DNA of 27,123 nucleotides from IMG/VR virus record IMGVR_UViG_3300043446_003391, positions 1-27,123 of that record. One strand, written 5' to 3'. This DNA is from a virus. Positions 21,162 through 26,442 of this stretch are shown here, one piece after another. The notes under the pieces were generated by a model. It was not told the DNA's origin. It made no database searches and saw nothing but the letters and a program-made list of their open reading frames with translations. A program made the position numbers and the translations under genes. Numbering within the stretch: position 1 is the first letter of the stretch; every line of letters starts with the position of its first letter.

Positions 21162-24100
21162 TTATGAACTTGCATAAGCAAGTTGTTCACTTACTTTACG
21201 ACCGTCAAGATAAACACTGATTCCGCCATTGGACATCAATGTGATCAATGCATCCATTTTTCTGTTTGTTTCTTGAATTGCAGCGATAACATCACTGCTG
21301 GTTTCGGTTTTTGTGACCGTTGTATTAGGAGTTTCCTTTTCTGTTTCAGAAAACACCGATCCGACCACGTTTCCGATTGATGATATCTTATCAGTCACAC
21401 CACTTACCAATCCACCTCCGATAGAAGACAATCCTTTGAATATTCCACCAAAAACATCGAAGGTTGAAAGCCATTCTTTGATCTTGGAGAAAATACCAGT
21501 TACGGCGTCCCAAATCATCATTGGGACGGTTTTTATGTACCATATGAATCCCTGAATCATAAGCATTGGAACCATTGTTACAACCGAAAATACATTCTTT
21601 ACAGCGTTGATTATGAATTCGCCAATTCCGCCTCCACCGCTGAACAGTCCTTTTATTTTATCAACAACCCCGGAGAAAAACTCTTTGATTGCAGACCATG
21701 CTTTTGGGAAGATTTTAACAATCGCAGTCAATATTGTGACTGGGATAAAAAACATACTGGTAAAAATCATTTTACCAATAGACATAATACTATTGATAAC
21801 ATCTTTGCCTGTAAAAATGTTTTTGATCAGATTCCACCCAGACTGTAAAAAATTGAAAACGCTCGTTATTCCAGTTTTTATGACCGGGAAAATCTTTGAA
21901 ATTTGTTGAAATAATACACCAATAATAGGGATTTTTCCCAACAACGTAATTATCATTTCAAATGGTCCAACAAAAACATCATATAGTGTTTCTCCAAATG
22001 CCTCAAAAAATCCCATACCACTCTTAAGTCGTGTAAACATACCCCATATTCCCTGTAGAGCTGTTAGTATCCACCCGATTGGTCCAAAGAAAGTTTTTGC
22101 TGTGTTTAGTATACCAAAAATTCGTCCAATACTTCCAAACCCAGAAGCAAAACGGCCAACCATTCCAGTCGCAGATCCGAACAACGACGTAAATCCTGTG
22201 ATTCTTGTCAATAATCCGGTAGCAATGTTATTGACCATTGAAAATAGTCGAATAACAGTGTTGAATATCGGTTTCAAAATATCACCGGTCTTTCCAATTA
22301 CATTTATTTGTCTACCGATATATGAAATAATAGATCCTATAGGTCTAAAAATCGATCCTATGTTTGATATAGATTGACCAAGACTTCTGATGCTTACACC
22401 GATAATTCTTATTGTCCGTGATATGAATGAAAATCCATCGATTATCACTTTTATTGGAAATGATACTTTAATCAAAGCAACCCCAAGATCAATTGTGCCC
22501 TGTACGATTTTTTCAATATACACGTTTGTTCCATCCAACGCATCACTGATTTTTTGCACAACTGGTTCGATTGGTTCCCACAGTGCATCTAGAGCTTTTG
22601 CAAGAATTTTAACCGGAATCAACATTGCATTAAAAATAACAAGTCCAAGTTTCAAAGCCGGTATCAAAAGTTTAACCGCCACATTTACAACTGGAGTCAA
22701 TATGTCGGCCAAAATTTGTTTAAACGATTTGAAAGTGTTACTCAACTGATTCATAGCACTTTGCATTTGAGCCTGTTGAAGCAATTGTTCACCTGTCTCT
22801 TCGTTTTGTTCTTTCAAGGCTTTTGTTGCTTCTTCATATGCCTTTTTTTGTTTTGGTTTTAACTTGGAAAGTTTCTCTTCGTTCTTCAACATAGAAGTTA
22901 GGTCGGCAACACTATATCCTGTTGCTTTTGCCAACGCTTCTTGTTGGAATACGTTCATCTTGGTGAAATCACCCATAGAACGAACTTGATTCAAGATTTC
23001 TTTCTGCGATCCGGCTATGTCACCAGCAAACGAAAGTTGACGTGCATAGTTAAGGTTCAAACTACGACCCAATAGAACACTGGCTTCCATTTCCGCATCT
23101 ACACTGTCTTGGAAGTTCAACAATCCTCTTGCAGCAGCGGCAGATTTTTCAAGGTTTACACCCAATCGTTGTGCTTGAATTGCAGCTAATGTCATCTGGC
23201 GAACATTACCCTTCATCATCGTAAGAGTAGTGTCAGATGCGTTTGCTACATCATGCATCACTTTGTCCAATGGAACTCCAGCTGCTTTAGCGGCACCAGC
23301 AGCCAATCCGGCCATTCCTATAGCTTGTTTTGATGTCAATCCACCGACACTTTCCATTTTCTGTAGGAATCCTGCCGCATTTGATTCGGTCACCCCCAAA
23401 TTTGCGTTGAGTTGAGAAACAGCTCTAATTTGTTCTTGCGTTACGGCATACGAATTGGAGAATGAGATAAACAATGCCTCAGCTGATTTGTATGCTTTTT
23501 CAATAGTAACTCCCTGACTGATCAACTCTTGGTTGATATTAAGAGCTGCTTTTTCGATTTCAACCATCTGATCTCTCATCAAACGGGTGTTATTACGAAA
23601 CACTTCAGCTTCTCTGTCCAATTCCACAAATCTGTCAAACGCGTCTGTAAATATCTCAAGCATCTCTTTGGCGAGTTTTTTGATGGATTCCAACTTTGCC
23701 GCTTGATCTTGCAGGGCTTTAATTTTGTCTTTTTGTTGTTTTACACCATCACCTTCAATTTCGATGGTTTCTTTTGCTTTAGATACAGCATCATCTTTTT
23801 TCTTCAAAACATTTTCTTCGTTTTTGAGCTGATCTTTCAACGACGCGATAGCGCTATCATCACACAATGTACGTTTCTTACAATACTTCTCTTCTTGTGC
23901 AATTTTGTCTTTTAGACCTTTTATTGCGTCTTCGGATGTCTTCTTTTCTTTAACAGCGTCTTCCAATAGTTTGTTCTGGTTCTTGGAAAGATCATCCAAA
24001 ATTTTATTTTCCTTTATCAACTCCTCGTTGAGTTTTTTAACAGGTTCATCGAGAATCATTGATGCAATTGCAGCAAACATTGACTGAAGTTGGTATCCTT

Positions 24101-24350
24101 CAGTCAATCCAGTTTTGGTAAAACGTACCAATGTGCCGCTGGCATCATCGAACGCAGCTTGAATATTTTTAGCTACGTCGGTGATGTCTTTTCCTGCGGC
24201 CGCAGCGGATTCTTGCATTTGATTAAATGCTCTCGCAAGAAGTCTAATTTTATCAGCAGTCAATTCTACGGATTTTCCAGAGTTTCTGGAAGCATCTGAT
24301 AGTTGCTGTAAAACTTTTGCGGCGTCTCTTGGTAAATCGGTGTCTGCCAT
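21162..24350 (-). CDS. Tail tape measure protein
   Basis: A 1062-residue protein, the longest in the window. Residues ~100-235 form a charged coiled coil (KKLNEELIKENKILDDL, KDKIKALQDQAAKLE). Residues ~250-520 are Ala/Leu-rich helices (LAAGAAKAAGVPLDKVM, KSAAAARGLLNFQ). Residues ~560-960 alternate long hydrophobic segments with amphipathic helices (VVNVAVKLLIPALKLGLVIFNAML, GWILTALQGIWGMF, VVTMVPMLMIQGFIWYI). A small Ser/Thr-rich and coiled C-terminus follows. This is the usual tape-measure build. It sets tail length while the tube polymerises around it, and its hydrophobic part may enter the host membrane on ejection. At ~1.5 angstrom per residue the tail would be about 160 nm (inference). 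It follows the gp26/chaperone-like genes, as tape measures normally do. Confidence 0.9.
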   Translation of the reverse strand: MADTDLPRDAAKVLQQLSDASRNSGKSVELTADKIRLLARAFNQMQESAAAAGKDITDVAKNIQAAFDDASGTLVRFTKTGLTEGYQLQSMFAAIASMILDEPVKKLNEELIKENKILDDLSKNQNKLLEDAVKEKKTSEDAIKGLKDKIAQEEKYCKKRTLCDDSAIASLKDQLKNEENVLKKKDDAVSKAKETIEIEGDGVKQQKDKIKALQDQAAKLESIKKLAKEMLEIFTDAFDRFVELDREAEVFRNNTRLMRDQMVEIEKAALNINQELISQGVTIEKAYKSAEALFISFSNSYAVTQEQIRAVSQLNANLGVTESNAAGFLQKMESVGGLTSKQAIGMAGLAAGAAKAAGVPLDKVMHDVANASDTTLTMMKGNVRQMTLAAIQAQRLGVNLEKSAAAARGLLNFQDSVDAEMEASVLLGRSLNLNYARQLSFAGDIAGSQKEILNQVRSMGDFTKMNVFQQEALAKATGYSVADLTSMLKNEEKLSKLKPKQKKAYEEATKALKEQNEETGEQLLQQAQMQSAMNQLSNTFKSFKQILADILTPVVNVAVKLLIPALKLGLVIFNAMLIPVKILAKALDALWEPIEPVVQKISDALDGTNVYIEKIVQGTIDLGVALIKVSFPIKVIIDGFSFISRTIRIIGVSIRSLGQSISNIGSIFRPIGSIISYIGRQINVIGKTGDILKPIFNTVIRLFSMVNNIATGLLTRITGFTSLFGSATGMVGRFASGFGSIGRIFGILNTAKTFFGPIGWILTALQGIWGMFTRLKSGMGFFEAFGETLYDVFVGPFEMIITLLGKIPIIGVLFQQISKIFPVIKTGITSVFNFLQSGWNLIKNIFTGKDVINSIMSIGKMIFTSMFFIPVTILTAIVKIFPKAWSAIKEFFSGVVDKIKGLFSGGGGIGEFIINAVKNVFSVVTMVPMLMIQGFIWYIKTVPMMIWDAVTGIFSKIKEWLSTFDVFGGIFKGLSSIGGGLVSGVTDKISSIGNVVGSVFSETEKETPNTTVTKTETSSDVIAAIQETNRKMDALITLMSNGGISVYLDGRKVSEQLAYASS

Positions 24351-24411: not shown

Positions 24412-24597
24412 TTACCTCTTTGTGCCGCCCGATTCTTTCTGTGATTTTTCCATTTGTTCGTTTTCTTTTTTACGAACATCGGCTAGTTTTCGAAGGTAGA
24501 ATATACGCAAATGTGTTGGTAGGTTGTATGCTATTTCTTGATTAAAAGCACCCTGTGAATAATACGAAAGATCAAACACTTGCGTATGAATTGCCAA
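24412..24597 (-). CDS. Tail-assembly-chaperone-like frame, probably expressed as a +1 frameshift extension of the gp26-like protein
   Basis: The frame is open from about 24630 to the stop at 24412. Its only early start is a TTG at 24597, 1 base past the gp26-like stop. Read from the T7 tract it gives FFGLTPEDKLAIHTQVFDLS, continuing YYSQGAFNQEIAYNLP, THLRIFYLRKLADVRKKENEQ and MEKSQ. The part before the TTG (GLTPEDK) is sensible helix-start sequence, and there is no ribosome binding site. The place, between a tail gene and the tape measure, is where long-tailed phages encode the chaperone pair made by frameshifting (lambda G/GT). Small size, a charged C-terminus and an aromatic helix fit such a chaperone. 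Independent initiation at TTG by coupling is the alternative. The fusion product would be about 348 residues. Confidence 0.7.
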   Translation of the reverse strand: MAIHTQVFDLSYYSQGAFNQEIAYNLPTHLRIFYLRKLADVRKKENEQMEKSQKESGGTKR

Positions 24598-24598
24598 C

Positions 24599-25459
24599 TT
24601 ATCTTCCGGTGTCAGGCCAAAAAAACTGTGCCGTCAATGGCACCGTGACCCTTTCTTCGTTTCCACATTCATCACATGAAAATGCAAATGTCATGTCCAA
24701 ATCGGGTGTGTTTTCACGGACATGTGATCGAAGTGCCAGACTGTCTCTGGAAGGAAGTTCTTGTTCGACAAATCGTTTGATGTAATTTCGGTCGGTTTCA
24801 CCATCAATAGCGATGATCATCGCTCTCAATCGAACTGTCATTTCACTGCTAGAATTTTTATTGATCTTATTGAGACCCTTCAATTCTGCGTCAATCTGAT
24901 TCTCATCTCTATGAGTCAACAATTTGTATTTGATAGTTTTCTTTGTATATGGAAGAACAAACTCAAATTCATTCGTACCACGCACAAACTTCTCAAAATC
25001 AAATGGTTTTGACTTCATCTGTGACAAATCAATGCGTTTCTCGTTTTCCGACTGACATTTTGGACATGATACCTTTACAGGTCCATATGTGTCACCATAT
25101 GCCAAACGACGGGCGGCAAAGAAAACCGCATTCTTATCACCTACCAACAGGTCATCCAACTTAATTGGCGTAACAATCAAAGATTCCAACAGTTTATCCA
25201 GTACAATTCCCTTTTTGATCAAATTTTGGTTTGTAAGAATATCTTCTTCTTTAGCGGTCATCATCTTAATTTCGATCTGACCGTTGCTTAGTGGATGTTC
25301 CTCTGGATAAAAATAACCTTCACTGGGCAAATCAATGGTTTCAGTCGGATATGTTGTTTTAACAGCGACTGGATTTGGTTGTGAAATTGATGGTCTAGAA
25401 ATAGGTGGTCCGCCAACAATAGTGTTTGGTCGAGTAATAGGAATAGTCTGATCGTCCAT
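24599..25459 (-). CDS. Baseplate hub protein, T4 gp26-like (T4_baseplate family)
   Basis: A 286-residue protein in the zero frame. After a Pro-rich N-terminus (1-38), residues ~39-120 contain TIDLPSEGYFYPEEHPLSNG, IEIKMMTAKEEDILTN and LIVTPIKLDDLLVGDKNAVFFAARRLAYG. These are hallmarks of the T4 gp26 baseplate family as I know it, which takes part in assembly of the hub. Two CxxC knuckles, SCPKC (Cys132, Cys135) and SCDEC (Cys262, Cys265), would together bind one zinc. The last residues are TAQFFWPDTGR, ending just past the T7 tract where the +1 frame continues into the chaperone-like region. No Shine-Dalgarno site precedes ATG 25459. The tape measure follows, in keeping with a tail-initiation role. 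Confidence 0.88.
   Translation of the reverse strand: MDDQTIPITRPNTIVGGPPISRPSISQPNPVAVKTTYPTETIDLPSEGYFYPEEHPLSNGQIEIKMMTAKEEDILTNQNLIKKGIVLDKLLESLIVTPIKLDDLLVGDKNAVFFAARRLAYGDTYGPVKVSCPKCQSENEKRIDLSQMKSKPFDFEKFVRGTNEFEFVLPYTKKTIKYKLLTHRDENQIDAELKGLNKINKNSSSEMTVRLRAMIIAIDGETDRNYIKRFVEQELPSRDSLALRSHVRENTPDLDMTFAFSCDECGNEERVTVPLTAQFFWPDTGR
24619..24625 (-). promoter_or_regulatory. Putative programmed frameshift site (T7)
   Basis: The sense sequence CAG TTT TTT TGG contains seven T. A Phe-tRNA on the second TTT can move +1 (or -2) and still pair with UUU, after which GGC CTG ACA continues in the chaperone-like frame. The overlap of the two frames is only about 36 bases and this is the only slippery run in it. 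A -1 slip would meet TGA within three codons. Confidence 0.65.
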
Positions 25460-25514: not shown

Positions 25515-25874
25515 TTAATTGGTCGATCCACCCTTTTGCACCGCTTTCAAATTGTTATTTGCAGCCGTTACACCATCTATTGCTTTTTGTTCAGCGTCAG
25601 TTGCTGCGTTTAACGATTCGTCTTCAGCCGATGTATCTCCTCCTCTACGTTCCTCGGCATCAAGTTTTTCCTCGGCAGATTTACGAACATCAGATGCTTG
25701 TGCCAACTTGATTTTTGCTTTCTGCAACTTCAATCGACCAACTTTGGTGTTCAAATCTGTTATTTGTTTGTCAATAACTTTTGTTGCATTTGTAAACTTA
25801 TCATCTTGTTCGTTGATTGTTTCATCAAGAACTTCATTGATCAAGGATACTAAATCGGCTTTGGAAATTTTCAT
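25515..25874 (-). CDS. Small coiled-coil protein
   Basis: A 119-residue, almost wholly helical and highly charged protein. The N-terminus MKISKADLVSLINEVLDETINEQ is an amphipathic leading helix like that of the 223-residue protein at 775-1446. Residues ~30-80 read as a coiled coil (VIDKQITDLNTKVGRLKLQKAKIKL, RKSAEEKLDAEERR), and the rest is Ala/Asp/Gly-rich and probably disordered. There is no membrane or catalytic motif. It lies between the tail tube terminator and the hub gene, so a role in tail assembly or as a minor virion protein is plausible but unproven. The ATG is only a few bases past a TATTTATA sequence, and no other Met is available. Confidence 0.65.
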   Translation of the reverse strand: MKISKADLVSLINEVLDETINEQDDKFTNATKVIDKQITDLNTKVGRLKLQKAKIKLAQASDVRKSAEEKLDAEERRGGDTSAEDESLNAATDAEQKAIDGVTAANNNLKAVQKGGSTN

Positions 25875-25950: not shown

Positions 25951-26442
25951 TTAGTATTGCAAAATTGCGTAATCGTATGCCAACGTTAGAGTGATGTTGA
26001 GAGGATCACCACCGTTGCTCCAATCACCGCTACCGAATTCTGCATTTGTGATGAAAGCGCCACGGATCAACCATTCTTCAACCTTGTCACCGACTGGGCC
26101 TAGAATGTTCATCGTGCAATCTTTCTTGTAGAAGTCTAGGTAACCATCACGTCCGGTTACACTTTCATGTCCCAAACGAATCCATTCCATGACTGCCTGA
26201 GCACCAGATGGAACGATTGGATCGTACAATTCAAGAGTGATATCATTCCAAACAGACTTGCCTTTGTAAGTACGTTGAATATTGATATAGTCAATCGTCT
26301 TCTTTTCTTGAACAAGCTTTGGTCTATCAGCCTTTTTGATTGAGAAGGCTGGAACGCCTTCGACTGAGAAGATAAAACGATTTTGAATTTTTGGTTCAAA
26401 AACCGTATAGAACATTTCGTTTGGATTTAGTAGGTCTGCCAT
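25951..26442 (-). CDS. Tail tube protein, T4 gp19-like
   Basis: A 163-residue protein, the same length as T4 gp19. It begins MADLLNPNEMFYTVFEPKIQNRFIFSVEGVPAFSIKKADRP, continues with a beta-rich core (YKGKSVWNDITLELYDPIVPSGAQAVMEWI) and ends GGDPLNITLTLAYDYAILQY. The pattern 'f.P...nRF.f...gip.f.ik...rP', then 'W..i...l.DPi....a.....W', then a closing beta strand is typical of the gp19 tube family. Hexameric rings stack around the tape measure to form the DNA conduit inside the contractile sheath. The sheath gene is not in the window. The start context is A-rich (GAAAAATTATGG) without a Shine-Dalgarno site, and the strong terminator after it points to high, separate expression. Confidence 0.93.
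   Translation of the reverse strand: MADLLNPNEMFYTVFEPKIQNRFIFSVEGVPAFSIKKADRPKLVQEKKTIDYINIQRTYKGKSVWNDITLELYDPIVPSGAQAVMEWIRLGHESVTGRDGYLDFYKKDCTMNILGPVGDKVEEWLIRGAFITNAEFGSGDWSNGGDPLNITLTLAYDYAILQY

Follow-up and report, generated by a model that had tools for sequence, protein, structure and literature searches.

Does the gp26-like gene of this T4-like virus encode one protein or two? An earlier note on the DNA had proposed that a programmed frameshift near the end of the gene joins its product to a domain read from an overlapping frame. We examined the window, meaning the whole stretch of 27,123 nucleotides (a 27 kb virus record with T4-like genes), together with its relatives. The comparison indicates that the +1 programmed frameshift of this T4-type tail assembly chaperone gene is genuine and deeply conserved, probably with a natural upstream hairpin as its stimulator.

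Two overlapping frames upstream of the tape measure gene

The tail module on the minus strand runs in the order tail tube, 119-aa ORF, gp26-like gene and tape measure (Table 1), so that the putative frameshifted gene pair is placed between the tail tube and tape measure genes, as for G/GT chaperones. The gp26-like ORF matches PF12322 (T4_baseplate) with an E-value of 5.9e-15 and 56 bits (curated cut-off 24.5) and phrog_150 (baseplate hub) with an E-value of 7.9e-20. For the 119-aa ORF, there is no family match above the cut-offs. Far from this module, at 1537-1743 of the window (minus strand), lies a 68-aa ORF built of repeats.

Table 1. Features of the frameshift locus and its surroundings (window coordinates)
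Feature	Position	Strand	Remarks
gp26-like gene, putative short tail assembly chaperone (zero frame)	25459-24599	minus	286 aa, ends ...TAQFFWPDTGR*
mRNA hairpin GUGCC AUUGAC GGCAC, 5 bp, proposed +1 stimulator	24628..24643	minus	direct from sequence
Slip site UUU UUU UGG	24617..24625	minus	conserved UUU/CUU_UGG_CCU, 122/122 distinct sites of class
P-site UUU of slip site	24622-24620	minus	predicted to slip +1 over U24619
Zero-frame tail WPDTGR-stop, predicted short-form C-terminus	24599..24619	minus	overlaps +1 frame
+1-frame extension, 68 codons + stop, T/gp51-like C-terminal domain	24412..24618	minus	codon-position differences; hhalign
Tape measure protein gene, 1062 aa, directly downstream	21162..24350	minus	E 2.6e-25 to phrog_58 (tail length tape measure)
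Tail tube protein gene, upstream	25951..26442	minus	E 2.2e-21 to phrog_4542 (tail tube)
119-aa ORF between tail tube and chaperone genes	25515-25874	minus	

The gene ends across a T7 run at 24619-24625 on the minus strand. The zero-frame codons are CAG (24628-24626), TTT (24625-24623), TTT (24622-24620) and TGG (24619-24617), followed by CCT, and the zero-frame mRNA closes with CAG UUU UUU UGG CCU GAC ACC GGA AGA UAA. When T24619 is skipped, the frame continues as ...QFF-GLTPEDKLAIHTQ... through 68 open codons to a stop at 24414-24412; the +1 codons after the second UUU are GGC CUG ACA CCG GAA GAU AAG, and the zero frame plus extension adds up to a fusion of 348 aa. The earlier note's coordinates and its reading of the open +1 frame near the zero-frame stop are thereby confirmed, as is its statement that a -1 slip closes at once: the -1 frame of the window reads ..FLA*, reaching UGA immediately, and a classical -1 site of the type X XXY YYZ was rejected for the window on this ground. 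The extension of the window contains only four start-like codons (TTG at codon 8, GTG at 14, TTG at 37 and ATG at 56). On its own, TTTTTTTGG is unremarkable in the window, with one occurrence seen versus 1.48 expected.

Conservation of the slip site and the extension

We confirmed relatives by tblastn and read each of them frame by frame. They comprise a first batch of 80 viral loci (50-94% identity), a second batch of 80 more loci from at least 594, 10 bacterial MAG contigs and nine phage records; at least four contigs are present in both batches. A search with a profile of the extension places it in the +1 frame for 176 of 180 loci (134 distinct extension sequences), so the anatomy of T-tract and two frames described for the window recurs across its homologs. 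One of the remaining loci carries the extension in the -1 frame and three lack a profile match; one of these three is truncated, and XacN1 and Atu_ph07 show the extension in -1 by eye.

Among 122 distinct 48-nt sites, 110 read TTT_TTT_TGG, six TTC_TTT_TGG and six TTT_CTT_TGG, with CCT next in all of them. Additional loci carry UUU UUU UAC or UUU UUU UUC. In the first 81 loci (947 kb), TTTTTTTGGCCT occurs 75 times at the slip site and nowhere else on the same strand. More distant relatives vary the site further, with a +1 extension at CUU UGG in Flavobacterium phage immuto and at UUU CAC in Bacillus phage SP-15, and a +1 site UUC UUU CGU in Streptococcus phage GXN1 (L085, near 4700). In locus L147, the motif is moved by one codon (CGA UUU UUA UGG CCU), and UUU UUA is the likely +1 site there.

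Among close relatives, the differences located past the zero-frame stop are distributed over +1-frame codon positions 1, 2 and 3 as 64/23/218, and 192 codon differences in this frame are synonymous versus 60 nonsynonymous. The extension is therefore a coding region under purifying selection in the +1 frame. A separate second gene with an ATG start, which would have spoken against the proposal, is not what most homologs show: 107 of the 134 distinct extensions have no ATG, GTG or TTG in their first 15 codons, and five have none at all. The zinc knuckle attributed to the protein in the earlier note fares less well, as the family can do without the zinc-binding cysteines (they are absent in immuto, Mel-JY01 and L112), and the zinc ribbon scores below Pfam cut-offs.

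A hairpin upstream of the slip codon

The earlier note recognized the frameshift, which stands, and overlooked an RNA hairpin upstream of it. The inverted repeat GUGCC AUUGAC GGCAC of the window ends 5 nt before the slip codon, and small mRNA hairpins that end 5-8 nt ahead of this codon are present at most sites. Examples from relatives are UGUACCG AUGA CGGUACA, ACGCC GAUG GGCGU, ACUCC GAUG GGAGU, ACCCC AAUG GGGGU, UACGGUU CCGAU AACCGUA and GUUGCGGUC CCUGU GACCGCAAC. We compared the 30 nt that precede the slip codon with synonymous recodings that keep the amino acids and local codon usage. In 120 distinct sites, the minimum free energy is -7.4 kcal/mol versus -3.8 kcal/mol in the recodings, which is about twice as stable (mean z -1.8; p<=0.05 in 56% of sites). 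Segments further upstream in the same genes give z between -0.04 and -0.7, and the first 45 sites gave z of -2.3 versus -0.15 in control segments.

The amino acids of the VPMTVQ/TPMGVS protein motif fix several paired bases, an upstream hairpin is lacking from 13 of 118 distinct sites, and the pairing register differs between clades. The hairpin might thus be a by-product of this motif with no role of its own next to a real frameshift, a reading that we consider unlikely. The null model already holds amino acids and codon usage constant, yet yields only half the stability. Moreover, Thr-type sites of the first batch use ACG for the Thr codon in 26 of 28 cases, although ACG makes up 13% of the Thr codons of those loci. 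In Gly-type sites, a stem pair in which both partners are wobble positions covaries, with pairing kept in 14 of 16 cases (permutation p 2e-5, kinship ignored); 97% of cells are paired, the covariation score was reached by none of 500 shuffles (kinship likewise ignored), and every slid register is far worse. Since 13 sites do without one, the hairpin is not obligatory.

In yeast, an upstream hairpin that refolds has been found to stimulate +1 frameshifting, and it attenuated -1 frameshifting both in human cells and in vitro (PMC3639245). Upstream hairpins likewise stimulated +1 and attenuated -1 shifts in E. coli 70S extracts; at the RF2 site, a stable hairpin reached about 60% of the stimulation by the SD duplex (PMC6321510). 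Because hairpins closing near the E site are known to affect the frame in this way, we assign the conserved hairpin the putative role of a stimulator. With only 5 bp, that of the window is weaker than the 12-bp hairpin tested in PMC6321510. The literature open to our search yielded neither a natural upstream-hairpin +1 stimulator from bacteria or phages nor a report of +1 sites in the gp26/gp51 family.

A weaker excess of stability (z about -1, 120 sites) lies about 4-80 nt downstream of the slip; it may reflect either a further element or the influence of dual coding and the null model.

Direction and nature of the shift

The earlier note had left the direction as +1 or -2, which lead into the same frame; the slip-site variants bear out +1 and speak against -2. 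In the T7 of the window, the Phe-tRNA could re-pair 2 nt upstream, so a -2 ribosomal slip as in Mu is conceivable here. In the six distinct TTC_TTT_TGG sites, however, it would place the Phe-tRNA on UCU, and in the six TTT_CTT_TGG sites, cognate re-pairing after a -2 slip is lost, yet that after a +1 slip is kept. As the UUC UUU UGG and UUU CUU UGG variants retain the extension, a -2 slip with cognate re-pairing is excluded, and a -2 slip of any kind appears very improbable; an upstream hairpin would also oppose backward movement (PMC6321510). Re-pairing in the +1 direction (UUU to UUU, or CUU to UUU as in RF2) is compatible with all UUU/CUU_UGG variants. The same variants bear on the other ways in which a homopolymer could mislead. 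Polymerases begin to slip around runs of 7 T, the length found in the window, and transcriptional slippage could give mRNAs with 6 or 8 U. The variants leave only 3-4 T and their carriers keep the extension, which argues against polymerase slippage, and a hairpin upstream suggests a translational event; we regard this route as even less probable than the -2 slip. Homopolymers are also error-prone in sequencing and assembly, and the earlier note had named reads with 6 or 8 T as evidence against its proposal. Of the 122 distinct sites, which come from independent assemblies, 110 have a run of the same length, as do cultured phages, and the variants that lack the homopolymer retain both frames, so the chance that the true run is 6 or 8 is negligible.

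The downstream frame might instead be a separate small gene expressed by re-initiation, for instance from the TTG at 24597 beside the zero-frame stop, where the window reads UAAGUUG. Small ORFs are indeed annotated at this place in immuto, Mel-JY01 and SP-15, and as gp51 in cyanophages. The starts are not conserved, as seen from the TTG missing in relatives L002, L004 and L005 and from the startless extensions described above, and re-initiation is therefore very unlikely. The conserved FFGL residues, moreover, come before any start, and the slip site itself is conserved. Site variants, conservation and missing starts thus led us to reject -2 slip, transcriptional slippage, assembly error and re-initiation alike, and by comparison of the sites the remaining route is +1 ribosomal frameshifting at UUU/CUU U.

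Relation to T4 gp26 and gp51

PF12322 matches T4 gp26 over the whole protein (8.8e-64) and T4 gp51 over residues 1-201 of 249 (3.9e-52). As the family covers both, T4 gp51 represents a gp26 domain with an extension. Each of ten relatives (records of 100-173 kb, which may be incomplete) has one PF12322 gene versus two in T4; separate genes for the short and the long form are thus absent from these ten records, in which both forms would come from one gene. P-SSM2, S-PM2, HTVC008M, KVP40, Desulfovibrio 7757, S-N03, RHph_I1_9 and ACG-2014j carry a gp51-like extension in the -1 frame, with slip sequences UUUUUUC, UUUUUUU or UUUUUUG; their annotation often lists it as an independent small 'gp51'. 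Records of this kind hold small genes named 'gp51 baseplate hub assembly catalyst' (NC_006883 7217-7390, NC_006820 151190-151363 and NC_005083 186612-186779, within L202-L205, and also L206-L211). Judged by sequence, these small gp51 genes, which belong to cyanophages, KVP40 and others, seem to be C-terminal halves of products made by -1 frameshifting in gp26 at a homopolymeric U slip site. P-SSM2 and S-PM2 also have a GGAGGG about 10 nt upstream of the -1 slip site, resembling dnaX-type stimulation.

The +1 extension aligns with a nine-sequence profile of -1 extensions that includes the T4 gp51 C-terminus (hhalign probability 90.7, E 1.2e-6). With T4 gp51 or gp26 as single sequences, direct hhalign aligned only a CxxC motif, and we hold a relation of the +1 extension to the gp51 C-terminus with moderate confidence. 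In an AlphaFold2 model of the zero-frame product alone (pLDDT 82), the structure is clearly related to those of SP-15 and other T4-like hub proteins; its best solved neighbors, the HK97 tail chaperone (2ob9) and YqbN (3klu), match weakly (Foldseek E 1.5-1.7, Z 4.9-5.5). Since the gp26/gp51 family is shared and the -1-frame extensions are homologous, the products would be a T4-type tail assembly chaperone pair.

The frameshift that the earlier note proposed, joining a gp26/T4_baseplate protein to an extension, thus receives strong support as a conserved event close upstream of the tape measure gene, and the note's link between the T4 hub assembly factor and G/GT finds independent support in the membership of gp26 and gp51 in PF12322 and in the alignment with the gp51-containing profile. 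This link is not new, as tail assembly chaperones in T4-like phages were reportedly identified by Vladimirov, Gautam and Davidson in 2022 (Virology 566:9-15). The chaperone identity and a -1 route were already known; our addition is the +1 route, together with its upstream hairpin. One chaperone family thus arrives at its short and long forms in three ways (two genes, a -1 shift and a +1 shift), and in current phage records, the extension is annotated as a separate small gene or is missing.

Proposed mechanism

We are confident that the locus encodes a +1-shifted T4-type tail assembly chaperone in two forms, with the hairpin probably favoring the slip. Sequence comparison establishes the conserved site, the coding +1 extension, the +1 direction, the hairpin in most relatives and the single family gene per genome; the chaperone function would follow from family and gene position. 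Most ribosomes would halt at the zero-frame UAA and release the short, gp26-like form, equivalent to lambda gpG. In a minority, with UGG waiting in the A site, the peptidyl-tRNA-Phe would move one base forward from UUU to UUU. Translation would then resume at GGC and add 68 codons, giving the long, gp51-like form equivalent to gpGT. On leaving the ribosome, the 5-bp hairpin would refold 5 nt upstream of the slip codon, where it probably favors the forward slip, opposes backward slips and takes the role that the Shine-Dalgarno:rRNA duplex has in RF2 frameshifting. We infer the actual slipping, the ratio of the two forms and the stimulation by the hairpin from these sequence features.

Hosts and Shine-Dalgarno use

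SD-like starts are few in loci of the clade of the window (13%), compared with 40-92% in the majority of other groups. The labels on the ten MAG contigs mostly read Flavobacteriales, Winogradskyella, Flavobacteriaceae, Saprospiraceae or Sphingobacteriales, and ribosomes of Bacteroidia occlude the anti-SD, although the SD-type prfB shift is retained there (PMC8710568). An SD-independent stimulator would suit such hosts. We offer this as a suggestion only, because strong hairpins are also present in several members of the second batch (e.g., L122 and L112), in which 40% of starts are SD-like.

A broader reading, which we judge evenly balanced, is that these sites represent a natural class of +1 stimulators in bacterial phages in which a refolding intramolecular hairpin replaces the SD-rRNA duplex, and that one T4-type chaperone family switches between -1 and +1 in evolution. 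The -1 shift would then combine homopolymeric U with an SD-like GGAGGG, as in cyanophages, and the +1 shift U UUU UGG with a hairpin; the latter may have been favored in hosts with ribosomes blind to SD sequences, such as Bacteroidota.

Comparison with known frameshift systems

The lambda G/GT tail assembly chaperone frameshift, reportedly described by Xu, Hendrix and Duda in 2004, likewise yields two chaperones, one short and one long, from a single locus immediately upstream of the tape measure gene, through a conserved shift near the end of the first frame. The shift is -1 in lambda, whereas here it is +1 with an upstream hairpin, and we know of no sequence relation between lambda G/GT and the chaperone of the window. 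G/T frameshifting has been described as conserved in long-tailed phages 'except T4', and as very likely +1 in the archaeal myovirus HSTV-2 (PMC5009743). T4 gp26 and gp51 belong to the same family, PF12322, as the gene of the window, and gp51 also consists of the domain and a related C-terminal extension; T4 has two paralogous genes, whereas the clade of the window has one gene and a +1 shift.

In RF2 (prfB), as here, a P-site XUU slips to UUU on the following U with a duplex close upstream of the P site. The A site of RF2 holds a stop codon, in contrast to UGG, UAC or UUC in the family of the window, and the RF2 duplex forms between SD and rRNA rather than as an intramolecular hairpin. The window shows nothing SD-like 3 nt ahead of the P codon (CACAG UUU UUU), and no autoregulation of its gene is evident, unlike in RF2. 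The +1 site of influenza A PA-X, UUU CGU, also has UUU followed by a pyrimidine, and its core is shared by the site of Streptococcus phage GXN1, although the protein is unrelated to that of the window. To our knowledge, PA-X has no known stimulator.

A further parallel is with engineered upstream hairpins, where a hairpin beside the E site stimulates +1 shifts in yeast and in E. coli 70S extract (PMC3639245, PMC6321510). Cho 2013 raised the question of whether hairpins of this kind might stand in for the SD duplex in 70S ribosomes, and proposed a genome search for them (PMC3639245). Those hairpins were synthetic or derived from the -1 attenuator of SARS coronavirus, whereas that of the window is natural and conserved. 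More than 100 natural, evolutionarily tuned +1 sites, most of them with a simple upstream hairpin, have the layout constructed artificially by Cho 2013 and Huang 2018.
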